Shown here: positions 8,940 through 26,325 of the stretch, piece by piece | Layout: each line of letters starts with the position of its first letter | Numbering within the stretch: the stretch's first letter is position 1 | Assembly: GCA_947449895.1 (NCBI GenBank) | Contig: CANFSO010000011.1 | Coordinates: 1-39,147 of the forward strand | Direction: 5' to 3' | DNA from: Comamonadaceae bacterium | GTDB lineage: Bacteria > Pseudomonadota > Gammaproteobacteria > Burkholderiales > Burkholderiaceae_C | DNA length: 39,147 bases | The notes under the pieces: generated by a model | Seen by the model: only the letters and a program-made list of their open reading frames with translations | The model's database searches: none | Told to the model about the DNA's origin: nothing | Position numbers and translations under genes: made by a program

Positions 8940-8993
8940 GGCAAATTGATTAAAAACTATTTTTTCACCATTTCAAACAGCTCTTTACCCACC

Positions 8994-10331
8994 ATGGACT
9001 TCTCTCCAGTCAGCGTTATCGGCCCCGACATCCATCAGCGGCCCAGCAGCGACAGCCTTTCCCCATCCAACGACAGCGTCGCCCCTGGCGACATCGCCGT
9101 TGGCGTGGTGATCGGTCGGGCCTCTGAATATTTCGACTTTTTTGTTTTCGGTATCGCGTCAGTGTTGGTCTTTCCTGCGGTTTTCTTTCCATTTGTAGAC
9201 AGCCTGCAGGGAACTCTTTACGCTTTTGTCTTGTTTTCCCTGGCCTTTGTGGTTCGCCCACTGGGCACTGTCGCCGGTATGTGGCTGCAACGCCGTTATG
9301 GCCGCAGCGCTAAGCTCAGCCTAGCGCTGCTGTTGCTGGGTTGCGCCACCGCCAGCATGGCCTTGTTGCCGAGCTACCAGGTGCTCGGCGTTGGCGCGAT
9401 TGCCTTGCTGGCGCTGTGCCGAATCGGCCAAGGGCTGGCGCTTGGCGGCTCGTGGGACGGACTGCCTTCGCTGTTGGCCTTGAACGCACCGGAAGACCGG
9501 CGCGGCTGGTACGCCATGCTGGGCCAGCTGGGCGCACCGCTGGGGTTTTTAATCGCTTGCAGCTTGTTTGCCTATCTGTGGGGCAATTTGAGCAGCGCGG
9601 AGTTTCTGGATTGGGGTTGGCGCTACCCTTTCTTTGCCGCCTTCGCGATCAATGTGGTGGCCTTGTTTGCCCGCCTGCGCTTGGTGGTCACGCATGAGTA
9701 CGAGCGCGAGTTGGATGCCAATGAACTGCAACCCTGCAGCCTGCGCGAACTGATTAGCACTCAGAGCAACAATTTGTTGATTGGCGCCTTTGCTGCGCTG
9801 GCCAGTTTTGCCCTTTTTCACATCGTCACGGTGTTTCCGTTGTCTTGGGTGATGTTGTACTCAGAGCAGTTGATTGGCGAGTTCCTCGTTGTCGAGATGG
9901 TTGGCGCGGTGCTGGCCGCCGCCGCCATGCCGCTGTCAGGCCTGCTGGCTGACCGCATCGGACGTCGCAGCACGCTGGGCCTGCTGGCAGTGCTGATTGG
10001 CGTGTTTGGGTTGTTTGCCCCCGTGTTGCTGGGCGGCGGAATACTGGGGCAAGATGCCTTCATCTTGATTGGCTTTGTCCTGCTAGGCTTGTCTTATGGT
10101 CAGGCGGCAGGCGCGGTGACGGCTAACTTCTTGCCTCACTTGCGCTATACCGGCGCGGCGCTAACGACCGATTTGGCATGGCTGATAGGCGCTGCCTTCG
10201 CGCCATTGGTCGCGCTCGGCTTGTCCGCGCGCTTTGGCTTGGTGGCTGTCAGTGTTTATTTGCTTTCTGGTGCTGTTTGCACCTTGCTGGCGCTGCGCGC
10301 CAACCAAACACTGTCGTTGCGCGATCAGTAG
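8994..10331 (+). CDS. MFS transporter, metabolite:H+ symporter type
   Basis: 445 aa major facilitator protein with about 12 membrane segments. The opening ASEYFDFFVFGIASVLVFPAVFFP and the loop RPLGTVAGMWLQRRYGR resemble the metabolite:H+ symporter branch (shikimate, betaine and dicarboxylate carriers). A second loop motif ADRIGRRSTLG follows at the start of the C-terminal half. The substrate cannot be predicted. The ORF track starts at a TTG (8946); the ATG at 8994 gives a more normal N-terminus, though neither has a strong Shine-Dalgarno. It is transcribed divergently from cyoA, and the shared region with the FNR box suggests oxygen-linked expression. Confidence 0.85.
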   Translation: MDFSPVSVIGPDIHQRPSSDSLSPSNDSVAPGDIAVGVVIGRASEYFDFFVFGIASVLVFPAVFFPFVDSLQGTLYAFVLFSLAFVVRPLGTVAGMWLQRRYGRSAKLSLALLLLGCATASMALLPSYQVLGVGAIALLALCRIGQGLALGGSWDGLPSLLALNAPEDRRGWYAMLGQLGAPLGFLIACSLFAYLWGNLSSAEFLDWGWRYPFFAAFAINVVALFARLRLVVTHEYERELDANELQPCSLRELISTQSNNLLIGAFAALASFALFHIVTVFPLSWVMLYSEQLIGEFLVVEMVGAVLAAAAMPLSGLLADRIGRRSTLGLLAVLIGVFGLFAPVLLGGGILGQDAFILIGFVLLGLSYGQAAGAVTANFLPHLRYTGAALTTDLAWLIGAAFAPLVALGLSARFGLVAVSVYLLSGAVCTLLALRANQTLSLRDQ

Positions 10332-10338
10332 CAAGTCT

Positions 10339-10356
10339 AGGCGTGAGTTGCCGCCT
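10339..10356 (+). terminator. Weak hairpin after the MFS gene
   Basis: AGGCG and CGCCT can pair across an 8-nt loop just after the MFS stop, followed by TAATTAAT rather than a clear T run. It could serve as a modest terminator. The same bases reach the end of the tctC remnant on the other strand. Confidence 0.25.
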
Positions 10357-10512
10357 TAATTAATCGCTAGCTTGACCTGCTTGAGAATGTCTGCCCAGTT
10401 ACGAGTCTCGTCCTGTATGAACTTTCAAAATTCTTCAGGGCTGCCTGTCACGGGGTCGACGCCTTGGGCGACCAATCGGTTGTGCACTTTCGGATCAGCC
10501 AGCACTTGGCAC
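10356..10512 (-). pseudogene. 3' remnant of a tctC/Bug receptor gene
   Basis: Read on the minus strand, this encodes the C-terminal end of a Bug receptor: VLADPKVHNRLVAQGVDPVTGSPEEF, then an in-frame TGA, then KFIQDETRNWADILKQVKLAIN and a TAA. The piece before the stop is ORF 10425-10700 of the track; the piece after it is too short for the track. Both parts match the ends of the intact receptors in this window in character. The N-terminal 80 percent of the gene is missing. The remnant is joined in a different frame to a thiolase remnant, so this is a deletion scar. Confidence 0.85.
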
Positions 10513-10871
10513 CAAAGCCTGCGGATTGTGCTGCGCATGGTGTGAGTCTGCCACCTTGATCCATGCGAGTTGCTCTGAGGTGCTGCCGTACTCTTGTACA
10601 TGGCGTTTGGCGCACATGGCGTAGCAGTTGGCATTGGTAATGCCTTAGGGGTACTCTCATTGAAAATCAGGTTGTGATGGGTGATGTCGGGCCCATACAC
10701 GGCGCGTCAGCCGAACAAAAATAACCGTCGATGTCGTCCTTTCTCAAACCCGCATCGTCGAGGGCTCCACGCGTAACTTCAGCATGCAATTGCGCGACCG
10801 AATGGTTTGGCGCTCTGCGCAAGGGGTGTGTAGGCGCCCACCATATAGGCTTGACCATGAATACTCGTCAG
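10508..10871 (-). pseudogene. Decayed SCP-X-like thiolase (acetyl-CoA acetyltransferase family)
   Basis: Fragments of one thiolase can be read in order on the minus strand. The start region reads CTG-TSIHGQAYMVGAY, with CTG where ATG is expected. After a frameshift near 10830 it continues HPLRRAPNHSVAQLHAEVTRGALDDAGLRKDDIDGYFCSADAP to a stop. In another frame comes YAMCAKRHVQEYGSTSEQLAWIKVADSHHAQHNP (10515-10623). In intact homologs the second and third pieces are more than 100 codons apart, so an internal deletion is likely. The third piece then runs into the tctC remnant. The gene lies 113 nt downstream of the acyl-CoA ligase on the same strand and was probably its operon partner. Confidence 0.85.
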
Positions 10872-10984
10872 CTTGCTTTGCGCCAGGACTGGCCCGCTGG
10901 GGCCGTAACAATGGGATAAATTTTCATAGGAGATTTTTATAGGGTGGATGGCCGCATGTGGAATATGGAATTCAGGGGTCAAAA

Positions 10985-12544
10985 TTAGGCGTATTTTCGC
11001 GACAATTTTGGATAGGAGCCGTCTATGAATTCATGTGTCGCAAGAATCAGTTCGCAGAGATGTCGCCGATTGATTTTTCCCTGTGGGTTACGCGGCAGAC
11101 TTTCGACACGCAAATAAGCACGCGGATGCTTATGACGCGAGAGCACGCTAACGCGTTCAGCGGCCTCGACCTCCCATCCGTCGCCTGCATTTTCGGCGAC
11201 TGCGACAATTATTTCCCCCCAATAGTCAGATGGGATGGAGGTGACACAGACTGCGCCGCATTTGTGAATTCCCGTCAGCAGAGCCTCGATCTCGTCGGGG
11301 TTGACGCGATAACCACCGGTCTTGATCACATCGGCGATCCGACCTGTTAGCCACAACCTTCCGCGTGAATCCAGACGACCCAAGTCGCCCGTTTGATGCC
11401 AGCCATCGGGCTCATGCGGCTTGAAGCTTCCAGCCTCTATCAATCCGACAGACATCTGAGGCGCACGCAACCAGACCTCACCGGGTGTGTCTGCGCCGCC
11501 ATCTACGTCGGCCTCGCCATGTATGCGGATCTCGACCCCTGGCGCTGGCCAGCCGACACAGGTTCCCGCCGTTCTTTCTTCGAGCGTGAAGTGAGCGTGG
11601 GTGTCATCAGGGCCTAGAGTGGTAATTGGATTGATGCATTCGGTTTTACCAAAGGTGACCCGCACGACCGGCCCGAAGATCGCGCAGGCTTTTTCGTAGA
11701 GCGCCGCCGTGAGCGGTGCCGTTCCCGTGAACACGCAGCGAACACCTGAAAAACGTTCGTTGCCGCATGCTGCGGCGATCTTGGCAAGAACCGTCGGAGG
11801 TGCAAACACGGCGTCAATGCTGCCTGAGCGCAACAGCACCAGCACGCGATCCGTATCGACGCCGTTCAAGAGGATGACTTCGCCGCCAAAGTCACACCAT
11901 GCGAAGGTGAGCAAAGCAGCTCCGTGCGAAAACGGCGTCATCATGAGGATGCGTGAGCCCGGACAGGGTGTGAAGGGCAGACTTGCCTTCAGCATTTGTT
12001 CACCAGTCCACCTTCGACCATGTGTATAAACCGCGCCTTTGGGTCTGCCGGTGGTCCCCGATGAGAACATGATGCGGCCTCGGGCCTCGGTCGGCACCGG
12101 CGGCAATGTCGTGCCTGGATCAAGGTCGGTGAACGCCTCGACCGTCAGTGGCTCTAGGTTGATGGCACGCAGTTCGTTAGCGCGCGCGTCAAGCGAGACG
12201 ACGATCCGGAATTCAGCAAGTCCGGCGCTCCAGCCGATTTCGTCGGTGGTGTAGCCCCAGTTCAGTGGCGCTTCTGCTGCCCCGGTCAGTTTGATGCCGT
12301 AGCAGGCCCAAACTGCTGCAAGGCCGTTGGGAAGGAGCGTTCCGACACATTGCCCGGGCCCGACGCCAGCCGCCATCAACCGGGCCGCCAAGGCGTGGGC
12401 GCGACTGCAGAGCTCGTTGTACGACAGCTGCTCGCAGCCGTTCGTCACCGCCGTCGTGTCGCCGAAGCGTGCGGCAAGAACGCGCAAGTCAGAGGACCAC
12501 GGGACGCCGGTTGCCCGCGTATGAATGGCTTCAGCAGACATCAT
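10985..12544 (-). CDS. Class I adenylate-forming acyl-CoA ligase
   Basis: About 519 aa AMP-dependent synthetase that would activate a carboxylic acid to its CoA thioester using ATP. Seen: phosphate-loop IMFSSGTTGRPKGAVYTH, the A5 motif as FGKTE (usual YGxTE), the A7 motif HQTGDLGRLDSRG, the hinge GRIADVIKTGGYRVNPDEIE, and the catalytic Lys in NPQGKINRR near the end. The track ORF begins at 12655, but that would overlap tctC by 43 nt. The ATG pair at 12544/12541 leaves a 68-nt gap and keeps the whole domain; the start is uncertain. Likely substrates are aliphatic, alicyclic or aromatic acids; I cannot choose. It follows the GntR gene and the receptor on the same strand and precedes the thiolase remnant. 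Confidence 0.85.
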   Translation of the reverse strand: MMSAEAIHTRATGVPWSSDLRVLAARFGDTTAVTNGCEQLSYNELCSRAHALAARLMAAGVGPGQCVGTLLPNGLAAVWACYGIKLTGAAEAPLNWGYTTDEIGWSAGLAEFRIVVSLDARANELRAINLEPLTVEAFTDLDPGTTLPPVPTEARGRIMFSSGTTGRPKGAVYTHGRRWTGEQMLKASLPFTPCPGSRILMMTPFSHGAALLTFAWCDFGGEVILLNGVDTDRVLVLLRSGSIDAVFAPPTVLAKIAAACGNERFSGVRCVFTGTAPLTAALYEKACAIFGPVVRVTFGKTECINPITTLGPDDTHAHFTLEERTAGTCVGWPAPGVEIRIHGEADVDGGADTPGEVWLRAPQMSVGLIEAGSFKPHEPDGWHQTGDLGRLDSRGRLWLTGRIADVIKTGGYRVNPDEIEALLTGIHKCGAVCVTSIPSDYWGEIIVAVAENAGDGWEVEAAERVSVLSRHKHPRAYLRVESLPRNPQGKINRRHLCELILATHEFIDGSYPKLSRKYA

Positions 12545-12612
12545 GAAATCGTATGGCCATGGTTCATTCGGATCCGTTGTGTAAGGCCTGGTCGCCGTTG
12601 GGGTGACGTTGG

Positions 12613-13575
12613 TCAGTCGACGCGGGCACCCGATGCCTTGACGGCGATCGCCCATTTTTCCAACTCGCTCTTGAAGTAAGCCGCAGTCTGTTCGGGCGTG
12701 TACTCGAGCGCTTCAGCCCCCATCCCAATCAAGCGCTCCCTTGTCGCCGGCTTCGCGAGCGCCGCATTGAGTTCAGCGTTCATTTTTTGAATAATCGGCT
12801 TGGGTGTGCCCGCTGGTGCTAAGAACGCAGCCCAAGCGAGCGCGCTGAAACCGGGCAAACCAGCCTCGGCCACCGTGGGTACTTCTGTCAGTGGCTGTGA
12901 GCGGCGCGGACTGCCGACCGCAAGGACCTTGAGCTTGCCGCTCTTGATGTGCGGAAGGACGGCCGGACCAGACTCAAACATCATGCTGATTTCGCCGCTG
13001 ATAAGCCCGATCAAGGCTGCTGAGGCGCCTTTGTAAGGCACATGTGTCATTTGCAAGCCAGCTGATGTTTTGAACAATTCCATCGTCAGGTGGTTGGTAA
13101 GTCCGATACCGCCGGAGCCAAAATTGAGCTTGCCTGGGTTTTGCTTGACATAGGCAATCAGCTCCTTGAGGTTGTTGGCAGGGATATCCTTGTTGATCAC
13201 AAGGAACTGCGGCACCGCCACCATCATGCCGATGGGTTCGAAGTCCTTCAGCGTGTCATAGGGCAGCTTCGAATAAAGCGACGGGTTGATGGCCAGAGGC
13301 CCGCTGGCCGCCATGAGCAAGGTGTAGCCATCGGGCACAGCGTTCTTTCCTAGCTCGGTGCCAATGATGGCGCCAGCGCCGGCCTTGTTGTCAACAAAGA
13401 AACTCTGGCCCAGTGACTCGGTGAATTGCTGCGCCAGTATGCGCGCCATGATGTCGGTGGTTTGCCCTGCTGGGTAAGGCACGATGATGCGCACCGGCCG
13501 GTTCGGATAGGCGCTTTGCGCAAGGGTCAAGCTCGACATCAGGCAAATGAGAATCGACGCGAAGATTTTTTTCAT
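12613..13575 (-). CDS. Bug/TctC-type periplasmic solute receptor
   Basis: 320 aa periplasmic binding protein of the Bug (Bordetella uptake gene)/TctC family. Signal peptide MKKIFASILICLMSSLTLAQSA, then the family start YPNRPVRIIVPYPAGQTTDIMAR. Further family marks are NKAGAGAIIGTE, DGYTLLM, SKLPYDTLKDFEPI, FGSGGIG, HVPYKGASAA and APAGTPKPIIQKMN. These proteins bind small organic acids or amides through backbone contacts, so the ligand cannot be read from sequence. It lies between the GntR regulator (39 nt upstream) and the acyl-CoA ligase, so its ligand is probably the acid activated by that ligase. No tctA or tctB is nearby. Confidence 0.93.
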   Translation of the reverse strand: MKKIFASILICLMSSLTLAQSAYPNRPVRIIVPYPAGQTTDIMARILAQQFTESLGQSFFVDNKAGAGAIIGTELGKNAVPDGYTLLMAASGPLAINPSLYSKLPYDTLKDFEPIGMMVAVPQFLVINKDIPANNLKELIAYVKQNPGKLNFGSGGIGLTNHLTMELFKTSAGLQMTHVPYKGASAALIGLISGEISMMFESGPAVLPHIKSGKLKVLAVGSPRRSQPLTEVPTVAEAGLPGFSALAWAAFLAPAGTPKPIIQKMNAELNAALAKPATRERLIGMGAEALEYTPEQTAAYFKSELEKWAIAVKASGARVD

Positions 13576-13614
13576 GGTGTGTCTCGGTGATTGTTTGAAG
13601 TGAACGTGAGAGGC

Positions 13615-14418
13615 TTAGTTGAAGGTCTCTGCTGAGTCCTTGTTCCAAGAAGTGACTAGCTGGAAGCGGTCTGCGATATACAGGTTGGCCGACGCACTCA
13701 GCAGACGGCCGTTGCGGTCGAAGTAACAGCGCAGCATGCGAAGTGCCGGGCTGCCGGGTTTAAGTTGCAGTAGTCCTGCCGCCTCGCTGGGCATCAAGGT
13801 GGCTTCAATGTGCTGCAACACAGACGCCACTTCTTCACCGTAAAGCTGATTGAGCAGGGCGTAAATGCTGGGGTGGTCACCGTGCAGGTGGTTCTGGATG
13901 TCGGCGAATTCTGGGCGCAGGTAAACCTTGGTGAATGAGATGGGCGCATCCTGGCCCACTAAGTGCCGCTTGGTGTGCAGCTCAAGCCACTCCGAGCCGA
14001 CCTCGCAGCGCAGGTCTTGGGCCAGTTGTGCGTCGGCCGTGACGCGGGCTTGACCCAGCACTTCAAGGCGTGTGGTGTTGGTGTATTTCATCAACGCTTC
14101 GAGGGAGCCCAGCGCGGCGACATAGGGTGCAGCTGGTTGGCTGGCCATCACGATGGTGCCAATGCTGGGGCGACGCGAAATAAGGCCGCTGTCGACCAAT
14201 TTGCGCGTAGCTTCGCGAACCGTGTGGCGGCTGACACCAAACGTTTTACCCAATTGGTCTTCGGTCGGCAGCAGACTGCCCACCGGGTATTTACCGCTTT
14301 TGATATCTCGCAGCAGGCACTCGTGTAGCCAGACATAGCGCGGCGTTGGTGGCGCAACGGTTGTGCGCACGGCGCGGCCAGTTTGCGACAGAGATGCGTT
14401 TAATTTGGATGTTTTCAT
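13615..14418 (-). CDS. GntR family regulator, HutC/UTRA subfamily
   Basis: 267 aa transcription factor. The N-terminal winged helix covers about 30-92 (PVGSLLPTEDQLGKTFGVSRHTVREATRKLVDSGLISRRPSIGTIV). A UTRA effector-binding domain follows (about 105-260, with the typical late segment SLRCYFDRNGRLLSAS-like: LRMLRCYFDRNGRLLSASANLYIADRF). UTRA domains sense small metabolites, often the substrate of the neighbouring pathway. The ATG at 14418 is preferred to the GTG at 14424. It stands at the head of the minus-strand genes and is divergent from the CoA-transferase operon. Two repeats of TTTRTACGGACA in the shared gap are candidate operators. Confidence 0.9.
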   Translation of the reverse strand: MKTSKLNASLSQTGRAVRTTVAPPTPRYVWLHECLLRDIKSGKYPVGSLLPTEDQLGKTFGVSRHTVREATRKLVDSGLISRRPSIGTIVMASQPAAPYVAALGSLEALMKYTNTTRLEVLGQARVTADAQLAQDLRCEVGSEWLELHTKRHLVGQDAPISFTKVYLRPEFADIQNHLHGDHPSIYALLNQLYGEEVASVLQHIEATLMPSEAAGLLQLKPGSPALRMLRCYFDRNGRLLSASANLYIADRFQLVTSWNKDSAETFN

Positions 14419-14432
14419 TTGCACTTTTTAGC

Positions 14433-14444
14433 TTTATACGGACA
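14433..14444. promoter_or_regulatory. Candidate GntR operator, copy 1
   Basis: TTTATACGGACA, within the wider imperfect palindrome CTTTATACGGACAAAG, lies 14 nt upstream of the gntR ATG. It matches the second copy 35 nt away at 11 of 12 positions. Position and repetition suggest autoregulation by the adjacent GntR protein. Confidence 0.5.
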
Positions 14445-14467
14445 AAGATTTCGCTTGCCTATGCTCG

Positions 14468-14479
14468 TTTGTACGGACA
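14468..14479. promoter_or_regulatory. Candidate GntR operator, copy 2
   Basis: TTTGTACGGACA, containing the small dyad TGT-ACGG-ACA, is 79 nt upstream of the divergent CoA-transferase ATG. Same orientation as copy 1 and 35 bp from it, so both promoters could be controlled together. Confidence 0.5.
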
Positions 14480-14558
14480 TTGAAAAATTGATTCCATGCG
14501 ACCATGAAACACCTTTCCCTGACGCTTTGAAGACGACCTCCGCACTCGATGAATCCCT

Positions 14559-15755
14559 ATGTCTGACACCCTCCCGCCTGACGCCGCCCGCACGGGCCCC
14601 TTTGCCGGTCTCGTCGTGGTGGAGCTCGGGCACAGTGTGGCGGCTCCCTTTGCCGGCCAAATTTTCAGCGAGCTTGGCGCGCAGGTCATCAAGATAGAAA
14701 AGGCCGACGGCGACGATGCGCGCAAATGGGGGCCACCATTTTGGGAAGGTGCCTCGGCATTTTTTCAGGCGCTCAACCGCAACAAACAGTCTGTCGTTTG
14801 CGAGCTTCGCGATCCTGCGCAACTGGCCGCACTCAAGCAATTGATTTGCGACCGGGCCGACATCGTGATCCAGAACCTGCGGCCTGGCCATGTCGACAAA
14901 CTCGGTCTTGATGGCCCCGGGTTGCTGGCGCTCAAGCCGTCCCTGATTTACTGCAACCTCGGCGCATTCGGGCGGACGGGCCCCTTGAAGGACCGGCCCG
15001 GCTACGACCCTTTGATGCAGGCCTTTGGCGGCATCATGAGTACAACGGGTGAACCGGGGCGGCCTTCAGTGCGGGTCGGCGCCTCAATCGTCGACATGGG
15101 TACCGGCATGTGGTCTGTCATCGGCATTCTGACCGCACTGCACGAGCGCCACACAACCGGGCGGGGAAGGGTGGTCGATGTGTCCCTTTTCGAGACCGCC
15201 AGTTGCTGGGTGTCATTGCTGGCTGCACAATTTCTGGCCTCGGGTCAATTGGCGGGCAAGCAGGGTTCCGGTGCGCCCGGTATCGTGCCCTACAAAGGCT
15301 ACTTAACACGCGACGGCGAAATCGTTGTGGCCGCGGGGAGTGACGGCTTGTTTCGCAGCCTAGCCGGTGCGTTAGACCGACCGGAGTGGCTGGCAGATGC
15401 CCGCTTCACGGACAACCCCAGCCGGGTGGCGCATCAAGTAGAGCTTTACGCTATGTTGGACGCCATCATGGCGCAGCAAACCACCGCGCACTGGATTGAG
15501 CGCCTAGAGGCCGTGGGCGTGCCGTGCTCGCCAGTCAACGACTTGGCCCAGATGCTCGTGCACCCTCAGACCAGCGCGCTTGGTTTAGTCCAGTCTGTGC
15601 CCGGCACCGGCATGCAGTTTGTTGGACTACCACTTAGTTTTGACGGCAAGCGTCCCCAGCCTGTTTCTGCGCCGCCCAGGCTTGGCGAGCACAACGCATT
15701 GCTTGGTTTTCCGGCGTTCATTTCTGATCCCCTTTCTGTACGGAGCGACACATGA
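14559..15755 (+). CDS. CaiB/BaiF family (class III) CoA-transferase
   Basis: 398 aa CoA-transferase that would move CoA between carboxylic acids, typically activating a substrate at the expense of succinyl-CoA or another acyl-CoA. Seen: N-terminal GLVVVELGHSVAAPFAGQIFSELGAQVIKIE, the NRNKQSVV loop, QNLRPGHVDKLGL, and the expected catalytic Asp179 in VGASIVDMGTG. C-terminal GLVQSVPGTG-GMQFVGLPLSF-type ending and PPRLGEHN close the family fold. First gene of a plus-strand operon; the hydratase start overlaps its stop (ATGA). There is also an AMP-ligase across the divergent promoter, so two activation routes sit in one island. Confidence 0.92.
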   Translation: MSDTLPPDAARTGPFAGLVVVELGHSVAAPFAGQIFSELGAQVIKIEKADGDDARKWGPPFWEGASAFFQALNRNKQSVVCELRDPAQLAALKQLICDRADIVIQNLRPGHVDKLGLDGPGLLALKPSLIYCNLGAFGRTGPLKDRPGYDPLMQAFGGIMSTTGEPGRPSVRVGASIVDMGTGMWSVIGILTALHERHTTGRGRVVDVSLFETASCWVSLLAAQFLASGQLAGKQGSGAPGIVPYKGYLTRDGEIVVAAGSDGLFRSLAGALDRPEWLADARFTDNPSRVAHQVELYAMLDAIMAQQTTAHWIERLEAVGVPCSPVNDLAQMLVHPQTSALGLVQSVPGTGMQFVGLPLSFDGKRPQPVSAPPRLGEHNALLGFPAFISDPLSVRSDT

Positions 15756-16552
15756 CACCCATCCCCGCGTATGAAACCGTGGCTATTGACATGGTTGGCG
15801 CCCATGTGCTGAAAGTCACCCTGAATCGGCCACAGGTCGGCAATGCACTCAACACGCAAATGGGCCGTGACCTACTGGACTTGTGGACCCGGCTGACGGA
15901 AGACGCTGGTGATATTCGCTGCGTGGTGCTGACGGGCGCTGGCGACAAAATATTTTGCGCGGGCGGTGACCTCAAGGAACGTAACGGCATGACCCGTGAG
16001 GTCTGGCGGCGTCAGCACGAGCTGTTCGAGCGTCAGTACTGGACGTTGGCCGACCTGCCGACACCCGTGATTTCAGCCGTCAATGGCCACGCCTATGCGG
16101 GTGGTCTAGAGATGGCTCTCTGCTGCGATTTCATCTACGCCAGCAGTGCCGCGCGTTTTGCGCTGACCGAAGTCACTCTGGGGATCATGCCGGGCGCTGG
16201 TGGCACGCAAAATCTGCCGCGCGCCATTGGCGAGCGCCGTGCCAAAGAAATCATCATGACTGGCCGGCCTTTTGATGCTGCACAGGCCTTGGACTGGGGA
16301 CTGATCAACCAGGTGCATGCACCGGGCGACGTGTTGGCCCGGGCGCTTGAAACTGCCGAAGTGATCGCCAGCAACGCGCCGCTGTCGGTACGTCAAGTCA
16401 AGAAGTCTATCCGCTATGGCGGACAAATGGAGTTGCGCACGGCTTACCGCTTTGAGGTCGAGGCCTACAACCACTTGGTCGACACTGAAGACCGAATGGA
16501 AGGCGTCAAAGCCTTCAACGAAAAACGCAAGCCGGTTTTCAAGGGTCGTTAA
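15752..16552 (+). CDS. Enoyl-CoA hydratase/isomerase (crotonase fold)
   Basis: 266 aa cytoplasmic crotonase. Both acidic residues needed for hydration are present: Glu120 in HAYAGGLEMALCCDF and Glu140 in ALTEVTLGIMPGAGGTQNLPR. The oxyanion-hole loop IFCAGGDLKERN is also intact. It is therefore expected to hydrate a 2-enoyl-CoA to the 3-hydroxyacyl-CoA. Translationally coupled to the CoA-transferase by a 4-nt overlap and followed by the acyl-CoA dehydrogenase, whose product would be its substrate. Confidence 0.92.
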   Translation: MTPIPAYETVAIDMVGAHVLKVTLNRPQVGNALNTQMGRDLLDLWTRLTEDAGDIRCVVLTGAGDKIFCAGGDLKERNGMTREVWRRQHELFERQYWTLADLPTPVISAVNGHAYAGGLEMALCCDFIYASSAARFALTEVTLGIMPGAGGTQNLPRAIGERRAKEIIMTGRPFDAAQALDWGLINQVHAPGDVLARALETAEVIASNAPLSVRQVKKSIRYGGQMELRTAYRFEVEAYNHLVDTEDRMEGVKAFNEKRKPVFKGR

Positions 16553-16631
16553 GACGCTACCTCGTTTCATGCCGACCCACGATAAGCTGACCCGGGTCGT
16601 CGGATTTTATTGATCAATGATGGAGTGAGCC

Positions 16632-17816
16632 ATGGACGAGAATTCAGCAACTTACAGCATCGAGGTGGGCGATGACTACCCCGAAATCCGCGATAGCGTA
16701 CGCCGCGTTTGCGCCGACTTTCCAGGGGCTTACTGGCGCAAGCTCGAAGAGGCCGAGGCCTACCCGACGGAGTTCGTCCAAGCACTGACAGTGGCCGGCT
16801 ACCTTGGCGCACTGATCCCTGAGTCTTACGGCGGCAGCGGTATGCCTTTACGCACCGCAGCGGTGATTCTTGAAGAGATACATGCGTCGGGCTGCAACGC
16901 CGGTGCTTGCCATGCCCAGATGTACACCATGGGCACTTTGCTGCGCCACGGTAGCGAGGCGCAAAAGCAGCGCTACTTGCCGCAAATAGCCAGTGGCAAG
17001 CTTCGGCTGCAGGCTTTTGCCGTGACCGAACCGACCAGTGGCACCGACACGACCAAGCTCAAGACCCGTGCCGTGCGTGATGGCGACAGCTATGTCATCA
17101 CCGGTCAAAAGGTCTGGACCTCGCGCGCTCTGCACTCAGACCTCATGTTGCTGCTGGCACGCACCACGCCTCTCGACCAAGTCAAGAAAAAGAGCGAGGG
17201 GCTGTCAGTCTTCCTTGTAGACATCCGTCAGGCGCTGGGCAAAGGCTTGGACATCAAGCCCTTGAAGGCGATGATCAATCACAACACGACTGAAGTCTTT
17301 TTCGACCAGCTGCGCATCCCGGCTGACTGCCTGATTGGCGAGGAGGGCAAGGGCTTTAAGTACATCTTGGACGGCATGAATGCCGAGCGTATTTTGGTTT
17401 CTGCCGAGGCGATTGGTGACGCGCGTTGGTTCACCAAAACATCGATCGCCTATGTCAACGAACGCCGCGTGTTCGACCGGCCGATCGGGCAAAACCAGTC
17501 GGTTCAATTTCCTGTGGCGCGAGCACACGCAGAAACCGAGGCGGCAGATCTGGTGCTGCGCCGTGCTGCCGCCCGTTTTGCGGCTGGGCTGCCCTGCGGC
17601 GATGACGCGAATATGGGGAAACTGCTTGCATCCGAAGCCTCTTGGCATGCCGCCGAAGCCTGCCTACAAAACCACGGCGGCTTTGGTTATGCCCGCGAAT
17701 ACGACGTTGAGCGCAAGTGGCGCGAAACGCGTTTGTTCCAGATCGCGCCCATCTCAACCAACTTGGTGCTGTCCTACATAGCCGAGCACATGCTGGGCAT
17801 GCCGCGCTCGTTTTAA
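16632..17816 (+). CDS. Acyl-CoA dehydrogenase, catalytic Glu in IVD/LCAD position
   Basis: 394 aa FAD-dependent acyl-CoA dehydrogenase that introduces the 2,3-double bond. Seen: FAD/substrate segment AFAVTEPTSGTDTTKLKT (128-144), ITGQKVWTSRA, and C-terminal NHGGFGYAREYDVERKWRETRLFQIAPISTN. At the site where MCAD and SCAD carry the catalytic Glu (YEGTS), this protein has QIAPISTN, so that base is absent. Glu252 in GMNAERILVSAEAIG aligns with the Glu used by isovaleryl-CoA and long-chain dehydrogenases. That hints at a branched or bulky substrate, but is not proof. It starts 79 nt after the hydratase gene. Confidence 0.9.
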   Translation: MDENSATYSIEVGDDYPEIRDSVRRVCADFPGAYWRKLEEAEAYPTEFVQALTVAGYLGALIPESYGGSGMPLRTAAVILEEIHASGCNAGACHAQMYTMGTLLRHGSEAQKQRYLPQIASGKLRLQAFAVTEPTSGTDTTKLKTRAVRDGDSYVITGQKVWTSRALHSDLMLLLARTTPLDQVKKKSEGLSVFLVDIRQALGKGLDIKPLKAMINHNTTEVFFDQLRIPADCLIGEEGKGFKYILDGMNAERILVSAEAIGDARWFTKTSIAYVNERRVFDRPIGQNQSVQFPVARAHAETEAADLVLRRAAARFAAGLPCGDDANMGKLLASEASWHAAEACLQNHGGFGYAREYDVERKWRETRLFQIAPISTNLVLSYIAEHMLGMPRSF

Positions 17817-17844
17817 GCCTTGCTTAACTTTTTAAAGGCCTCAC

Positions 17845-19218
17845 ATGTCCGCTCCATTTCCCTTGACTCAAGCCTTGGCCAAATTTGTGGCAGCCCCGAC
17901 ATTTGGCGCTGACGAACAGGCCGCTTGCGCGATTGCCAAGACAGGTTTCATAGACACCATCGCCACCATGATGGCCGGCTGTAATGAACCGGTGGTCGGC
18001 ATAGTCAAGCAACATGTGGCAGCCAATCAGACACCGGCCGAAGCGCCTGTAGTGCCCTTTACCGGGGCCATGCTGCCGGCGGCGCAAGCTGCCTGCGTCA
18101 ACGCCGTTGCCGCTCACGCGCTTGACTTCGATGATGTCGCGCTGTCAGCGCACACCAGCACGGTTCTGGTCCCGGCGATTCTGGCGGAAGGCCATTTGCT
18201 CAACGTGTCAGGCGCAGAAGCATTGCGCGCTTACGTGGTGGGCTATGAGGTCTGGGCTGAGCTGTTTGCCCGCGAGCCAGACCCTTACCATTTGAAGGGT
18301 TGGCATCCAACGGGCGTCTTTGGCACGGTCGGTGCAGCGGCAGCCGTGGCTTACCTACATCGTTTGTCGGCCGAACAGACCCAACAAGCGTTGGCGATTG
18401 CGGCCAGCATGGCCAGTGGACTGGTGGCCAATTTCGGCACCATGACCAAGCCGTTTCACGCTGGGCGCGCCGCTGCTTGCGCGATTGAGGCGGTGCGTCT
18501 GTCTCTACTCGGGCTGACGTCCGCCCCTGATGTGTTCGAGCACCCGGCTGGGTATTTGAATGCTTTGTCGCCAGCCGGTCGGGTCGACCGCACACGCGCA
18601 GCCAGCGGACTGGGCAAGTCGTTGCGCATTCTGAAGACCGGCCTGTCGGTCAAGCGCTACCCGGTGTGCTACTCGGGTCATCGTGTGATTGATGGCGTGA
18701 TGGAGATCGCCGAACGCGAAAACCTTCAACCCGAACAGGTCAGCCGAGTGCGGGTGAGCATGGGCCCGGCGCAGGTGTCTATGCTGCGCAACCACAGCCC
18801 GCACACCAGCCTGGAAGCCAAGTTCAGCGCTGAGTTTGCCGTTGCCGCAGCACTGGTGGCGCGTCAGGTTGGCCTAGCCGAACTCACTGACAGCTTCATC
18901 GCAAGGGGCGACGTACGAACGCTGATGGGCAAAGTGGTGGTCGACACCACCGACCGTGCATGCCCCATTGACCCAGCCTTCTCCTATGCCGACCGGGTAC
19001 AGATCGAGCTGACCGATGGCAGCTCATTTGACTCTGGCGACATCCGCTTTGCGCGGGGTAACGCTGAGCTGCCGATGGACGCGGAATGCCTGCGGACTAA
19101 ATTTTTAGACTGTGTTGCGGCCGGCCCGGCATCCGACAAAAGTTTGTCAGGCACAGTGCTTTATGAGCGCATTGCTAATTTGGAAAATCTCGCAAGTCTT
19201 CGGCAGTTGTTTGCTTGA
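17845..19218 (+). CDS. MmgE/PrpD family protein
   Basis: 457 aa protein of the MmgE/PrpD family, whose known members dehydrate 2-methylcitrate or isomerise/decarboxylate related acids such as cis-aconitate. Seen: NAVAAHALDFDDVALSAHTSTVLVPAILA (about 88-115), GYEVWAELF, GWHPTGVFGTVGAAAA near 150, MTKPFHAGRAA near 197, and KRYPVCYSGHRVIDG near 270, all typical of the family. Bug-containing clusters often carry a PrpD-like protein with no known substrate. It starts 28 nt after the dehydrogenase stop and 47 nt before the receptor start. It suggests that the substrate has a tricarboxylate-like or hydroxylated branched skeleton, though this is inference. Confidence 0.9.
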   Translation: MSAPFPLTQALAKFVAAPTFGADEQAACAIAKTGFIDTIATMMAGCNEPVVGIVKQHVAANQTPAEAPVVPFTGAMLPAAQAACVNAVAAHALDFDDVALSAHTSTVLVPAILAEGHLLNVSGAEALRAYVVGYEVWAELFAREPDPYHLKGWHPTGVFGTVGAAAAVAYLHRLSAEQTQQALAIAASMASGLVANFGTMTKPFHAGRAAACAIEAVRLSLLGLTSAPDVFEHPAGYLNALSPAGRVDRTRAASGLGKSLRILKTGLSVKRYPVCYSGHRVIDGVMEIAERENLQPEQVSRVRVSMGPAQVSMLRNHSPHTSLEAKFSAEFAVAAALVARQVGLAELTDSFIARGDVRTLMGKVVVDTTDRACPIDPAFSYADRVQIELTDGSSFDSGDIRFARGNAELPMDAECLRTKFLDCVAAGPASDKSLSGTVLYERIANLENLASLRQLFA

Positions 19219-19265
19219 GAACCACTGTCGTCAATGCATGGAAAGGCCAATCAATTGGAGACAGT

Positions 19266-20255
19266 ATGTCAATAAATAAGTCGACGCGACGGATTTGGTT
19301 AACACGAGTTATCGGTGCTTCAGCCGTCTTGGCCAGCCATGTGACGAGTACTGCGCAGACCAAGTACCCGGGCAAGACGATCCGTGTGATCGTGCCGTAT
19401 GCCCCCGGCGGTGGAACCGATGTCATCGGTAGGAAATTACTGCAAAACATGGCGAGTCAATTGGGTCAGCCGATCATCATTGACAACAGGCCGGGGGCGG
19501 GAACTGTGATTGGAACGGATGCCGTCGCACGAGCCGAAGCTGACGGTTACACGCTGCTGATCAACACCAACGCGATTGCCGTGAACGCCTCTCTGGTCAA
19601 AAAACTACCCTACAACACCTTGCAGGATCTTGTGCCAGTAGGCCGTATTTGTACAGGACCCAATGTCCTCGTGGTTCGGGCTGACAGTCCCTTCAAAACC
19701 CTGAGCGACATCATCCGGGCATCCAAGGCCATGCCGGGTAGTCTCAGTTATGCATCTTCGGGCAACGGCACGGCTGTTCATCTTGCGGCGGAACTCCTGA
19801 AGGTCACTGCCAAGATCCGCATCCTGCACATCCCTTATCGGGGCGCCGGCCCAGCCTACACAGATTTACTGGGTGGCCAAGTCGATATGCTTTTTGGTAC
19901 GGCAGGCGGCGTGAGTAAATTTGTCCAGTCGGGACGCATGCGTGCCATTGCTGTCACCTCAGAGTCTCGGTCTGCGGCCTATCCCGACGTTCCCGCCGTC
20001 TCTGAAACCTTGCCTGGGTATGCTGCCAACGTTTGGTATGGCATGTTCGCACCAAAGGGGACGCCCAACGAAATTCTGACTGCGCTGAATGACGCGATGC
20101 GTCTTGCCGTCAGTGATCCGGGCTACAGCGCAGACCTTGTACGGGACGGCTTGACGGCCGCGGTTAATTCTCCTTCTGAGATGGTGACCTTCATGCGCAG
20201 CGAAGTCGAGCGTTGGCAAAAAGTCGTCACTGAAGCTGGCATCACACTGGACTGA
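19266..20255 (+). CDS. Bug/TctC-type periplasmic solute receptor
   Basis: 329 aa receptor. The ORF track begins at a TTG (19215), but GGAG at 19257-19260 lies 5 nt before the ATG at 19266 and the signal peptide (RIWLTRVIGASAVLASHVTSTAQT) then has a normal length. Family marks: YPGKTIRVIVPYAPGGGTDVIGRK, NRPGAGTVIGTD, DGYTLLI, KKLPYNTLQDLVPV, YASSGNGTAVHLAAE, HIPYRGAGPAYTDLLGGQVD and APKGTPNEIL. The ligand is unknown. It lies inside the CoA-transferase/hydratase/dehydrogenase operon, so it probably captures that pathway's substrate. It is the second Bug receptor of this island. Confidence 0.93.
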   Translation: MSINKSTRRIWLTRVIGASAVLASHVTSTAQTKYPGKTIRVIVPYAPGGGTDVIGRKLLQNMASQLGQPIIIDNRPGAGTVIGTDAVARAEADGYTLLINTNAIAVNASLVKKLPYNTLQDLVPVGRICTGPNVLVVRADSPFKTLSDIIRASKAMPGSLSYASSGNGTAVHLAAELLKVTAKIRILHIPYRGAGPAYTDLLGGQVDMLFGTAGGVSKFVQSGRMRAIAVTSESRSAAYPDVPAVSETLPGYAANVWYGMFAPKGTPNEILTALNDAMRLAVSDPGYSADLVRDGLTAAVNSPSEMVTFMRSEVERWQKVVTEAGITLD

Positions 20256-20269
20256 CATCGAAAGAATTT

Positions 20270-21070
20270 ATGACGAACAAAAGATTATTGGGTAAGGTCT
20301 GCATCATTGTTGGGGCCGGACAGCAACCGGGTCAAACGCTCGGTAATGGTCGCGCCGTTGCAGAGCGGTTCGCAGAGGAGGGTGCCTCGTTGTTGCTGGT
20401 CGATATCAACCCGGACTGGCTTGAGGAAACGGTGCAGGCTGTGCGTGCCCACAAGGGCATCGTGCATTCGCTGGTCGCGGACATCACGCAGGAGTCTCAG
20501 TGCCAACAGATCGCCGCAACCTGCATCCAGCATTTCGGAAAAATTGATGTTCTTCACAACAATGTCGGCCTTTCAAAGGGCGATAAACGCACGGCGGATT
20601 TGGACGTTTCTGCGTGGGACTACATCATGGACAGAAACCTCAAGGGGATGTTCATGACGTGCAAGCATGTCTTGCCGCACATGGTTCGGCAACGATCCGG
20701 CTGCATTGTGAATATTTCATCGACATCATCTCTCGCTGCCAGGCCTACATTGACCTACAAGACCAGCAAGGCCGCAGTCAACGCGATGACTCAGCACATC
20801 GCTGTCGAAAATGCGCCATTCGGTATCCGTGCAAACGCAATTTTGCCCGGACTCATGGACACGCCTATGGCGATCAATCGGCGAGCTCAAGAGCAAGGCA
20901 TTGACCCCGAGTTAATCCGCCAGCAACGCAGCGCACTGGTTCCCATGGGGCGCATGGGGACAGCGTGGGACGTTGCCAATGCGGCGGTCTTCTTGGCCTC
21001 TGATGAAGCGGCCTACATCACCGGCGTGCTGTTACCCGTAGACGGTGGGCTGCTTCAAAAACGGGGATAA
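20270..21070 (+). CDS. SDR family oxidoreductase, possible 3-hydroxyacyl-CoA dehydrogenase
   Basis: 266 aa classical short-chain dehydrogenase. The nucleotide-binding loop is a longer variant, VGAGQQPGQTLGNGRAVA (14-31). Cofactor Asp is in LLLVDIN, which favours NAD(H). Then HNNVGLSKG, the catalytic Ser in IVNISSTSSLAARP, and the YKTSK motif. The C-terminal end GVLLPVDGGLLQ is standard. Its operon (hydratase, acyl-CoA dehydrogenase) makes oxidation of a 3-hydroxyacyl-CoA a sensible role, but SDR sequences rarely fix a substrate. It is the last gene of the operon, 14 nt after the receptor. Confidence 0.9.
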   Translation: MTNKRLLGKVCIIVGAGQQPGQTLGNGRAVAERFAEEGASLLLVDINPDWLEETVQAVRAHKGIVHSLVADITQESQCQQIAATCIQHFGKIDVLHNNVGLSKGDKRTADLDVSAWDYIMDRNLKGMFMTCKHVLPHMVRQRSGCIVNISSTSSLAARPTLTYKTSKAAVNAMTQHIAVENAPFGIRANAILPGLMDTPMAINRRAQEQGIDPELIRQQRSALVPMGRMGTAWDVANAAVFLASDEAAYITGVLLPVDGGLLQKRG

Positions 21071-21074
21071 ATGC

Positions 21075-21102
21075 CCACGAGCTTTGACGTACTCAAACGT
21101 GG
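21075..21102. terminator. Hairpin between convergent SDR and SMP-30 genes
   Basis: CCACG-agc-TTTGA-cgtac-TCAAA-CGTGG forms a two-part stem (5 + 5 bp with a 3-nt bulge) that fills the 33-nt gap between two converging genes. There is no clear T run on either side, so it would be an imperfect bidirectional terminator at best. Confidence 0.35.
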
Positions 21103-21103
21103 C

Positions 21104-22039
21104 TTATTCAGCCGATTGTTTGTGTGAGTACAACTCAAGTCCAACGGCTGGTAAATTGGCTACCAGCAGGCTGCCAGTGGCCGACTCTGTCATCACAATT
21201 TGCATGGAATCTGGGCGAAAAGCGAGGTTGGTCACCGTAGCACCCGACGGGCTCTTGACAAAGTGCGTGACTTCACCGCGTGCATTGAGCACAAAAGCGC
21301 CACCCAAGCTGGCATGGGCGACCACCAGGCGAGCTTCGCTGTCAAGCGCCATCCCGTCCGGGCCACTGCTACCATAGAACGTCTGGAAAGCGCCCATCTT
21401 GCTGATACTGCCGTCGGGCAGCAGCGGCGCACGCCATATTTGATTGGCTCGGGTGACGGCTAAAAAAAGAGCCTTGCCATCAGCGCTGATGGCGATGCCA
21501 TTTGGGCTGGGGGCGTTGCTCAGTAAAAGGTCTAATTTGCCGCTGTCAGTGCACCAACGATAGACCCGCCCGGTGGGGTCATGCAGGCCGGTTTGTCCTT
21601 GATCGGTGAAGTACAAATTGCCATTTGGATCAAAAGTCAGATCATTGATGCCCTTGAAGGATTCACTGTTGCGGTGCCCTAGCATGGTGCTGATGACGCC
21701 GGTTTTTGGATCTAGCCGCAAAATGCCCTGTCGGTAGTCAGCAATCCAGACACTGCCATCGGCATGCACCGCCAGTCCATTCGGCCAGCCGCCGTAGTCG
21801 GCCACGCAGTGCCACTGCAAATCCGAAGTTACCCTGAAGATCCTGCCGTGCGGTATGTCCGTCAGGTACAGGTTGCCGGCGCGGTCAAAGCAGGGGCCCT
21901 CCAGAAAACAATCAACAATTTGGCCGGGTTTGTTCGCATCAGCCCAGTTGCTGGGCACCGGTCGCCGCAGTTCATCTGGCAAGCGGGTCAGTACCTGGGC
22001 TTCAATGATTTGCGGTGGTGTGAATGAAAGGTTCCACAT
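21104..22039 (-). CDS. SMP-30/gluconolactonase/LRE-type lactone hydrolase
   Basis: About 311 aa six-bladed beta-propeller of the SMP-30/gluconolactonase/LRE family, which hydrolyse lactones with one bound divalent metal. Likely metal ligands are visible: Glu in FLEGPCFDRAGN, Asn in GINDLTFDPNG, Asn in APSPNGIAIS and Asp in SSGPDGMALD. The motif PNGLAVHADGSVWIADY is a typical blade. The ORF track starts at 22084 within the CoA-transferase gene; the ATG at 22039 gives the common MWN... start and avoids the overlap, but neither has a clear Shine-Dalgarno. Last gene of the seven-gene minus-strand operon. A lactone intermediate in that pathway is a reasonable inference. Confidence 0.85.
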   Translation of the reverse strand: MWNLSFTPPQIIEAQVLTRLPDELRRPVPSNWADANKPGQIVDCFLEGPCFDRAGNLYLTDIPHGRIFRVTSDLQWHCVADYGGWPNGLAVHADGSVWIADYRQGILRLDPKTGVISTMLGHRNSESFKGINDLTFDPNGNLYFTDQGQTGLHDPTGRVYRWCTDSGKLDLLLSNAPSPNGIAISADGKALFLAVTRANQIWRAPLLPDGSISKMGAFQTFYGSSGPDGMALDSEARLVVAHASLGGAFVLNARGEVTHFVKSPSGATVTNLAFRPDSMQIVMTESATGSLLVANLPAVGLELYSHKQSAE

Positions 22040-22062
22040 GGTCTGGCACTTTGATGAAAACG

Positions 22063-23550
22063 TTAAGGTTGCCGGGGTAGCCATTGCGCTGCGTCGCTCC
22101 CTAAGCGTGGCGATGGTCGGTCCCAGTGGGGAGGCGTGCTGGACATCTGCAACACCGGGCCCAAGGTTTTGAGTTGGCCATAACAGGTGTTGGCTTGCAC
22201 GTGCAGTTTTTCAAGCTCGTCCTCCGTCAAGCACCCCGGCGCAGCGGCAAAGGATTCAAGTAAGCCCTGGCGTTGCACAAACATGGCCGACTGACACAGC
22301 GAGACCTGCACGTGGTAGCTGCCGCCTTCGCGTGCCCGGCGTGCTAACGCCAGCATGGCACCAAGCGCCGCCAAGTACCCGGTGGTGTAATCGCACAATG
22401 GAGCAAAGACCAGCTTGGGTTGGCCTCCCTGAGTCAACAGGCCATTGGTGTGGCAAATGCCGGTGACGGCTTGAGCGACCTGTTCCCAGCCTGCGCGCGA
22501 AGCCCACGGTCCGCCTGAACCGAAGCAGCTAACGGACACAACAACCAGCCCTGGCCGTTGCGCCACAAGGTCTTCGACAGAAAACCCGTGAGCGGCAAGT
22601 CGTCCGGGTCGATAGCCGTCGATGAACACGTCGGCCTGGCTCACTAACGCACGCAGTTCTTCTGCTTGAGAGGGTTCGCGAATATTCAGAAAGCAACTGC
22701 GTTTACCGTGACTGGTGTCTCGCACATGCTCGGGTGTTTGAGGAAGGCCTTCTGCGCCGACCATCAGGACATCAGCCCCGTGCTCAGCCAGCGCGCGACC
22801 GGCCACCGGTCCCGCCAAAATACGGGTCAAGTCCAGCACTCGAACACCCGAGAGCGGCCTGTCTCCGCTGTGCAGTTGCTCGGGCGCAGTGTCTGCTATT
22901 TTTGTGATTTCAATCACAGGTCTTGCTGCAAGATAACGGCCCTGTGGATGCTCAAGCCATTCTTGTGGACTGCGAATCATGCCGCCGCAGGCGCCTGCGT
23001 TGGCGATGGCATCCTCCAGGGCAACACCTTCCCAGCCGGCGACGGCTTGGCGCACAGCCGCCGGCGTGTCGTCGCAAGCCAGAACGTCTAGTACGCGGCG
23101 ACTCAGGTGGGGAAGGTTGAGGTGGGGCAGCAGCCAGTGGCCGTCCTTCGTCGGCCAAGGTTGGGTCACGCCGAGCATGTGTGACATGGCTGCGGGAATG
23201 GGAACGTGGACATACTGTCCGTCCTGATTCAGCGCCCGTGTGTAGTCCACGGTGCGCAGCGTTGCTGCCGCAGGGGCAACATCGACGTGTATTTTCTGCC
23301 GCAAGCCGGTTCTGAGTTCCCATAAGTCGTTGGCGGCAACCCCGATAGCAGCCAATGCTGCGGCTACAGTTTCGCCCACCCGATAAGGCGTTGGAAAAAA
23401 CGGGTCGCTGCCGGTCATGCTTAATTCGCCAGGAGCCAGCTCATCTTGACCTCTGAGCGCCATCAATTCGGCGAGTGCGCGCCATTTTCCAGGGGGCTGA
23501 AGCTTGTCAGACTTGTTTGGATTGGGCGTAGACGTAGGGAGGGTGTTCAT
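22063..23550 (-). CDS. Long CaiB/BaiF CoA-transferase with N-terminal extension
   Basis: 495 aa, about 100 aa longer than a standard class III CoA-transferase. The canonical N-terminal motif SGVRVLDLTRILAGPVAGRALAEHGADVLMV appears only near residue 233, after about 200 residues that resemble the back half of a CaiB domain (TQPWPTKDGHWLLPHLNLP, EDAIANAGACGGMIRSPQEWLEHPQG). This is the layout expected if the domain were circularly permuted or partly duplicated. The candidate catalytic Asp is in FAPLCDYTTGYLAALGAM, and the C-terminus (LGPVLQMSSTPPHWDRPSPRLGSDA) is a normal CaiB end. It starts 1 nt after the receptor stop. Substrate unknown. Confidence 0.88.
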   Translation of the reverse strand: MNTLPTSTPNPNKSDKLQPPGKWRALAELMALRGQDELAPGELSMTGSDPFFPTPYRVGETVAAALAAIGVAANDLWELRTGLRQKIHVDVAPAAATLRTVDYTRALNQDGQYVHVPIPAAMSHMLGVTQPWPTKDGHWLLPHLNLPHLSRRVLDVLACDDTPAAVRQAVAGWEGVALEDAIANAGACGGMIRSPQEWLEHPQGRYLAARPVIEITKIADTAPEQLHSGDRPLSGVRVLDLTRILAGPVAGRALAEHGADVLMVGAEGLPQTPEHVRDTSHGKRSCFLNIREPSQAEELRALVSQADVFIDGYRPGRLAAHGFSVEDLVAQRPGLVVVSVSCFGSGGPWASRAGWEQVAQAVTGICHTNGLLTQGGQPKLVFAPLCDYTTGYLAALGAMLALARRAREGGSYHVQVSLCQSAMFVQRQGLLESFAAAPGCLTEDELEKLHVQANTCYGQLKTLGPVLQMSSTPPHWDRPSPRLGSDAAQWLPRQP

Positions 23551-23551
23551 C

Positions 23552-24526
23552 TCATTCAGGCTTGATGCCCTGTTGCTTGATCAGCGCCGACCAGCGTTTG
23601 ATCTCGCTTTCAACTTGCTGGACGGCTGCCGCTTGTGAGCTGGCAACGGTTGTCAGTCCCATGTCGGCGCTGCGCTTTTTCACATCAGGCAAGTTCAACA
23701 CCGCGTTGATATCCTTGTTGAGTTTTTCGAGGATGGGCTGAGGTGTCCCCGCGGGTGCAGAAAATCCGACCCAAAAGTCCATGGCCATTTCTGGCAGACC
23801 TTCATCTTTGGCCGATGGCACATCAGGCAACACCGGGGATCTTGTATTGCTAAGCACCATCAAAGGTCGAAGTTTGCCGGACTTGATGTGCGGCAGCACT
23901 GTGGTGACTGTTGAGATCATCATCTGCACTTGGCCCCCCATCAGATCGGTCAGAACCGCACCGGCGCCGCGGTACGGAATGTGTGTGATGAAGATGCCGG
24001 TTTGCGACTTGAGCAGCTCGGAACCTAGGTGCGTGTTGGTGCCGATACCGCCTGAGCCGTAATTAAGGCTGCCCGGCTTGGCTCTGGCCAGCGCAAGGAA
24101 CTCTTTCATGGTCTTGGCTGGGAGGCCGGGTGTGACCACCAAGACATGCGGCACTGACACCGCCGTGGTGATGTGAGAAAAGGCATTGCGCGGGTCAAAT
24201 GGCAGGTTGGGGTTGAGTCCTGCCGCGATGGCATAAGACAACTCCATCGTGATCAACGTGTGACCATCCGGGGCTGCGCGCGCCACGCTGCCCCAGCCGA
24301 TCGCGCCTGCGCCACCCGTTCGGTTCTCGACTAACACTGGTGCGCCCAGCGGTCCCGCCAATTGTTGTGCGACCAACCTGGCAACAATGTCGGTGGCCCC
24401 GCCCGTTGCAAATGGGACGACGATGGTAGTGGGCTTGGACGCTAAGCCCTGGGCGAAAGCTGAGGGAGTCATAGCCGCTAACCCGGCCATGGATAAAGCG
24501 GCATTTAAGAAGTAGCGTTTTTTCAT
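23552..24526 (-). CDS. Bug/TctC-type periplasmic solute receptor
   Basis: 324 aa receptor with signal peptide KKRYFLNAALSMAGLAAMTPSAFAQG. Family marks: KPTTIVVPFATGGATDIVARLV, NRTGGAGAIGWGSVAR, DGHTLITM, NLPFDPRNAFSHI, YGSGGIGTNTHLGSE, HIPYRGAGAVLTDLMGGQVQ, APAGTPQPILEKLN. It lies 39 nt after the crotonase gene and directly before the long CoA-transferase. It is one of two receptors in this operon and is clearly a different paralog from the other, which suggests two ligands or a duplicated uptake step. Confidence 0.93.
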   Translation of the reverse strand: MKKRYFLNAALSMAGLAAMTPSAFAQGLASKPTTIVVPFATGGATDIVARLVAQQLAGPLGAPVLVENRTGGAGAIGWGSVARAAPDGHTLITMELSYAIAAGLNPNLPFDPRNAFSHITTAVSVPHVLVVTPGLPAKTMKEFLALARAKPGSLNYGSGGIGTNTHLGSELLKSQTGIFITHIPYRGAGAVLTDLMGGQVQMMISTVTTVLPHIKSGKLRPLMVLSNTRSPVLPDVPSAKDEGLPEMAMDFWVGFSAPAGTPQPILEKLNKDINAVLNLPDVKKRSADMGLTTVASSQAAAVQQVESEIKRWSALIKQQGIKPE

Positions 24527-24565
24527 CTAGTCTCTTTTATAAAAATGATCAAAGGGTTTTGTATC

Positions 24566-25300
24566 CTAGGGATGCTCTCGCCGTTTCCGTATCGCTGCAT
24601 TGACTTGTTGTCCCTGTTCCATGCCGGTGCGCCAGGCGTTAAAGCCCTCGGGAACGGCTTGCAGAGCTTTTTTTGTTTCTTCTAGAGCTGTTGAATCGAA
24701 CCCGGCGATGGTTTGGGCTAGCTGTGCAGTGCGGGTCATCAATTGATCACTAGGCACCACCTCATTGAGCAGTCCCCAGCGTTCTGCTGTCAGCGCATCA
24801 AGTGGCGTATTGGCCAGTAACAACCAAGCAGCGCGTTTGCGGTTCACAAGGAGTTGACTGGTTGGGCCGGCCATGCTCGCGAAAGCCGCAAAACTAATCT
24901 CTGGGCAACCTAAGGTGGCGGTGGCTGATGCCAGCGCTAAATCGCTTGAGTTGATGAGCGTCACACCCTGGCCGAGTGCGACGCCATTGACTGCCGCAAT
25001 CACAATGGCCGGGTGCTCGCGCAATGCCATGTTGATTTCAATCGCATCTGATCCGGCGCTGTCGACTTGGCCTGAGGCTATTTCTGCTTCCCGTTCCCTC
25101 AGATCTAGACCGGCGCAAAAGCTAGCTCCTGTTCCCGTCAACACAATGACCTGAACCTTGCCACGCAAGGACTCAAGCGCACGCAACAAACTGTCCCGTG
25201 TCGCTCGATCCAAGGCGTTCCGTTTGGACTCTCGGTCGATCCTCAGCAATGCCCAGCCGGGGTGCTGTTCAATACAAAGCGTAGTGGGCTTCAGTGTCAT
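24566..25300 (-). CDS. Crotonase-fold protein lacking one catalytic Glu
   Basis: 244 aa enoyl-CoA hydratase/isomerase family protein. CoA-binding and oxyanion parts are present (KRNALDRATRD; GTGASFCAGLDLRERE). In the active site the first Glu of hydratases is replaced by Thr114 (VALGQGVTLINSSDL where hydratases have GGGCELAL). The second Glu is kept as Glu134 (LGCPEISFA), and the usual PGAGGTQRL is changed to SMAGPTSQL. A single acidic residue suits an isomerase or another crotonase reaction better than hydration. It starts 4 nt after the upstream receptor gene. The exact reaction is unknown. Confidence 0.85.
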   Translation of the reverse strand: MTLKPTTLCIEQHPGWALLRIDRESKRNALDRATRDSLLRALESLRGKVQVIVLTGTGASFCAGLDLREREAEIASGQVDSAGSDAIEINMALREHPAIVIAAVNGVALGQGVTLINSSDLALASATATLGCPEISFAAFASMAGPTSQLLVNRKRAAWLLLANTPLDALTAERWGLLNEVVPSDQLMTRTAQLAQTIAGFDSTALEETKKALQAVPEGFNAWRTGMEQGQQVNAAIRKRREHP

Positions 25301-26300: not shown

Positions 26301-26306
26301 CGCTTG

Positions 26307-26312: not shown

Positions 26313-26325
26313 GTTGTTTCTATGT

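Follow-up and report, generated by a model that had tools for sequence, protein, structure and literature searches.

In the stretch of DNA analysed here, 39,147 nucleotides of contig CANFSO010000011.1 from a Comamonadaceae draft genome (assembly GCA_947449895.1), which we call the window, some 0.5 kb lie between two intact genes, coding for a CoA ligase and an MFS transporter. This interval, hereafter the scar, carries on its minus strand thiolase blocks in three frames, from 10865 to 10510, and then, from 10505 to 10359, the C-terminal 49 residues of a TctC/Bug receptor (Table 1). The five peptide strings named in a preliminary description of the region are all there, on the minus strand and in three frames. 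As that description had remarked, the track of open reading frames conceals the scar: what it lists is a mechanical 91-residue frame (10425–10700) in which noise runs into the beginning of the receptor tail. Each side of a single point is significantly homologous to a different intact gene, as tblastn and blastn with the genomes that we label G306 and G374 both show. Against the intact operon of G306, blastn returned pieces of 161, 108 and 41.9 bits, while the maximum reached by 200 first-order Markov shuffles was 30.1 bits; the matches are thus not the product of chance. Among 401 genomes of the family, the top match of the scar had E = 6e-40, and in the plasmid records that match it the genes are annotated as thiolase.

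Table 1. Features of the scar and of its surroundings, in window positions
Feature	Position	Strand	Basis or remark
MFS transporter gene, intact, converging on the scar	8946–10331	plus	Pfam MFS_1
tctC remnant, last 49 codons, one TGA, original stop TAA kept	10356–10505	minus	tblastn to tctC of G306
Peptide KFIQDETRNWADIL	10424–10383	minus	frame 1; separated from the next peptide by TGA
Peptide VLADPKVHNRLVAQGVDPVTGSPEEF	10505–10428	minus	frame 1; separated from the previous peptide by TGA
Main deletion junction	10500–10510	minus	GT(G/A)CTG on both sides; putative microhomology, from relatives
Thiolase remnant, residues ~128–184	10510–10680	minus	frame 0; 77% identity over 57 aa to the G306 thiolase (tblastn)
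Peptide YAMCAKRHVQEYGSTSEQLAWIKVA	10623–10549	minus	frame 0
Internal deletion point, ~193 bp of thiolase gone	10680–10683	minus	blastn pieces against G306
Thiolase remnant, residues ~15–65	10676–10828	minus	frame 2; 78% identity over 51 aa to the G306 thiolase
Peptide HPLRRAPNHSVAQLHAEV	10828–10775	minus	frame 2
Peptide GQAYMVGAY	10856–10830	minus	frame 1
Thiolase remnant, first codons TSIHGQAYMVGAY	10830–10868	minus	tblastn to G306 and G374 thiolases; start alignment
Spacer from ligase stop to thiolase remnant, ~116 bp	10869–10984	minus	
AMP-binding CoA ligase gene, intact neighbour	10985–12655	minus	Pfam AMP-binding; relatives lack this thiolase behind it
tctC-type receptor genes, intact frames (starts)	12616, 19215, 23555, 25308, 36223, 37269		

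Instead of a complete thiolase, about 390 residues in one frame, the scar holds residues ~1–65 and 128–184 only, scattered over three frames. Residues 2–13 of the G306 thiolase correspond to window 10865–10830 in frame 1. The position of the start ATG of the relatives is occupied by ACG at 10868–10866 (G306 ATGAGCATTCATGAC, window ACGAGTATTCATGGT), not by CTG as had been proposed at the outset: in the alignment CTG is the codon before. A 1-base deletion separates the first block from the second (ACAC in the window, GAGCAC in the relatives), and between the second and the third some 193 bp have disappeared, a gap of similar extent against G306 and against G374. The third block, which reads PSQPDFQ*EYP*G where the relatives have PSQPDFQWEYPYG, contains two nonsense codons, with TGA for Trp and TAA for Tyr. 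The inactivating lesions of the scar therefore comprise a frameshift, the loss of the start, three nonsense codons and the ~193-bp deletion. Pfam remained silent on the isolated thiolase pieces because, with 45–62 residues, they are too short, and they had to be compared with full-length genes instead. No further intact copy of the thiolase was found in the same genome, which is 78.5% complete; another of its contigs carries a thiolase of 32% identity only.

The blocks had been described as running into the tail of a Bug receptor gene, and this tail is indeed the end of a tctC gene, 59% identical over 49 residues to the tctC of the G306 operon. Of a complete TctC/Bug receptor (about 320 residues and a signal peptide) there remain the last 49 codons, with a stop among them, and the Pfam TctC model recognizes them at E = 4e-4, below its curated cut-off. 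Searched alone, the tail first finds the tctC genes that belong to the thiolase operons of G306 and G374 (71 and 60 bits), followed by matches of 48.5 and 41.6 bits. The window itself is densely populated with genes of this type, since six of them with intact frames occupy the 26 kb between 12616 and 38282.

When the thiolase fragments (102 residues) were compared with 26 thiolase loci of other genomes, the closest were those of G306 (contig C93; 83/102, 81%) and G374 (contig C1; 79/102, 77%), which belong to two other genera of the family; the 24 others did not exceed 69/102 (68%). In both genomes the intact order is thiolase, Zn-ribbon/OB-fold protein, CoA-transferase A (CtfA), CoA-transferase B (CtfB) and tctC, and these are the only ones, among the loci examined, with CtfA, CtfB and TctC directly downstream of the thiolase. 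G716 has the thiolase–OB pair with tctC on the opposite strand, and the remaining loci mostly keep that pair and differ downstream, one of them (L076) lying on a stretch too short to tell. In a related thiolase gene of another genome (L072:2123–3798, G297) we noticed a partial tandem duplication, where residues 7–284 are followed by residues 98–389. The two relatives thus possess both genes of the scar, in the same order and orientation, together with the part missing between them. The scar resembles their operon by its thiolase blocks (74–78% identical), by its tctC tail (52–59%) and by an equal order and orientation; it differs in that the genes for the OB-fold protein, CtfA and CtfB are gone, tctC has lost most of its length and the thiolase its C-terminus, and what is left is frameshifted and interrupted by stops. 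As the thiolase fragments and the tctC tail, compared independently, both select the G306 and G374 operons, a single source is indicated: to judge from these alignments, the scar derives from one five-gene acyl-CoA operon for degradation.

By blastn, the junction's two sides correspond to positions 3802 and 7031 of the G306 sequence, 3,228 bp apart, and lie at 10500 and 10505 in the window. What is missing relative to G306, about 3.2 kb, covers the end of the thiolase gene, the OB-fold gene, CtfA, CtfB and the first ~275 codons of tctC. The preliminary description had rightly seen a deletion junction, but one that removed most of two genes, whereas three whole genes (OB-fold, CtfA and CtfB) went as well; a second, internal deletion, of ~193 bp, split the thiolase. 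The junction itself reads CCAAGTGCTGGCTGATCC in the window, to be set beside CCAGGTGCTGACG in the thiolase and CTGGTACTGAGCGACCC in the tctC of G306, and the short GT(G/A)CTG that they share is plausibly the point of recombination, a step that we infer from the relatives. An illegitimate deletion of ~3.2 kb, for which short stretches of identity around GTGCTG probably provided the ends, would then have joined thiolase codon ~185 to tctC codon ~276. The ~193-bp deletion, the 1-base frameshift, the loss of the start and the three nonsense codons may have come before this event or after it.

On the other side of the spacer lies the ligase; the preliminary description had suggested looking in related genomes for an intact ligase–thiolase–tctC order. 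Four relatives of the ligase were found: one in G077 (94% identical), one in a draft that bears the label Acetobacteraceae (87%) and two in drafts with the label Burkholderiaceae (53%). None of them has this thiolase behind the ligase; what follows is a tctC gene that is truncated, a gene of the LysR type, or other genes. We accordingly reject the ligase as an ancestral member and retain the order thiolase–OB–CtfA–CtfB–tctC. DNA similarity between the window and the ligase relatives stops at 10994–10995, and as it ends at 10994 the last ligase codons may themselves come from a junction. The truncated tctC start behind the 94%-identical ligase (L022:589–1068, G077) is a further decayed receptor gene, in a third genome. 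As for the 87%-identical ligase (L021:1–836), its contig measures 3.4 kb and bears the label Acetobacteraceae (isolate palsa_911), which would mean either transfer between classes or a misbinned contig. The spacer (10869–10984) matched no plasmid and gave only short, weak matches (E ≥ 0.0017) in the 401 family genomes, a search that found no origin in a mobile element. Reading 10960–10990 (TTTTGACCCC) as an IS21 end found no support, the best window match of a Comamonas IS21 end (17/26 bases) lying elsewhere.

On the opposite flank, the MFS gene is kept in 12 other members of the genus, of which G078, the sister genome, is the nearest. Its DNA and that of the window are 91% identical over 1.57 kb, a match that spans the MFS gene, reaches 10384 among the final codons of the tctC tail and breaks off there, so that next to this MFS gene G078 retains only the last 53 bp of the scar. 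Where the tail has its stop codon TAA in the window, G078 reads CAA. After the departure point come ~45 bp with the end of an IS21-like element, located exactly at the departure, between the tctC tail and a fragment of an enoyl-CoA hydratase gene (L006:1561–1600, L052:17115); 24 of its 26 bases are those of the end found beside istA on a Comamonas antarctica plasmid. The hydratase piece corresponds to window 24957–25264, and it precedes the equivalent of 26160–26748, with a truncated tctC start and a CoA-transferase gene. G078 thus lost the equivalent of window 10385–24956, or never had all of it, and has been eroded differently. In G070, G072, G075, G076, G023 and G038, different genes follow the MFS gene, and a search of these six genomes for the tctC tail returned nothing. 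Because an intact operon was found beside this MFS gene in no genome, the state before the deletion is reconstructed from two other genera.

How else could such a chimera arise? A draft in 209 contigs, 78.5% complete with 2.1% contamination, might have brought two unrelated pieces together at 10500–10510, the more so as the join is present in one assembly only; comparisons with 87 genomes of the genus, 401 of the family and 399 of the order did not bring up a second. Yet its two sides come from a single operon and are arranged and oriented as they are there, both carry lesions, and the tctC end beside the MFS gene was found independently in G078; we regard an assembly artefact as extremely improbable. 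It is very improbable, too, that a deletion fused pieces of two unrelated operons which were chance neighbours: the six other intact-frame tctC genes of the window make such a neighbour conceivable, but the tail is closest to the tctC genes of the two thiolase operons, and the best of the six others shares only 36.6% identity with it. Finally, the leftover short frames (~66 thiolase codons from the ATG at 10858, which opens a truncated frame with the thiolase block HPLRR...GPTS, and the 91 codons of 10425–10700) might still be made and used as small proteins. With blocks in three frames, three nonsense codons, the start codon gone, less than one third of a thiolase plus 49 receptor residues, and the same absence of the chimera from the other genomes of these three sets, this is hardly credible.

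The initial reading, that of a decayed thiolase and a tctC tail joined by deletion, is thus borne out by the comparison with intact operons. The minus strand of 10356–10868 is, with high probability, a non-functional remnant of a thiolase–OB–CtfA–CtfB–tctC operon, fused by deletion and decay, and a functional product is unlikely to come from it. What the analysis adds is which operon was lost, that a second deletion took place, that the start codon became ACG, that the ligase stood outside the operon and that the sister genome was eroded differently at the same place. This is ordinary pseudogene erosion, and no new gene. Pseudogenes formed in bacteria by deletion and point decay are the subject of PMC2916853 and PMC9336565; like the scar, they are what is left of genes that were once intact, broken by deletions, frameshifts and nonsense codons. 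The scar does not differ from them in kind; here a single deletion extends across five genes, and a fused relic remains. In annotation, the scar calls for the label of a pseudogene relic, and the frame at 10425–10700 should not be entered as a protein. The importance of the case beyond annotation is small, and it illustrates that fragments below the reach of gene callers and of Pfam can be traced to one lost operon, given enough relatives.

The place beside the MFS gene could itself be a recurrent deletion spot, eroded independently in two sister genomes, by a deletion of the short-repeat type in one and, in the other, with the end of an IS21-like element at the point of breakage. We think this unlikely, and if it were true the spot could serve to compare routes of gene loss within the lineage. 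G078 also harbours a second graveyard (L052:17166–18055) in which enoyl-CoA hydratase and tctC fragments are joined; full-length copies of the genes buried there are open frames in the window, at 24569–25300 and 25308–26378.
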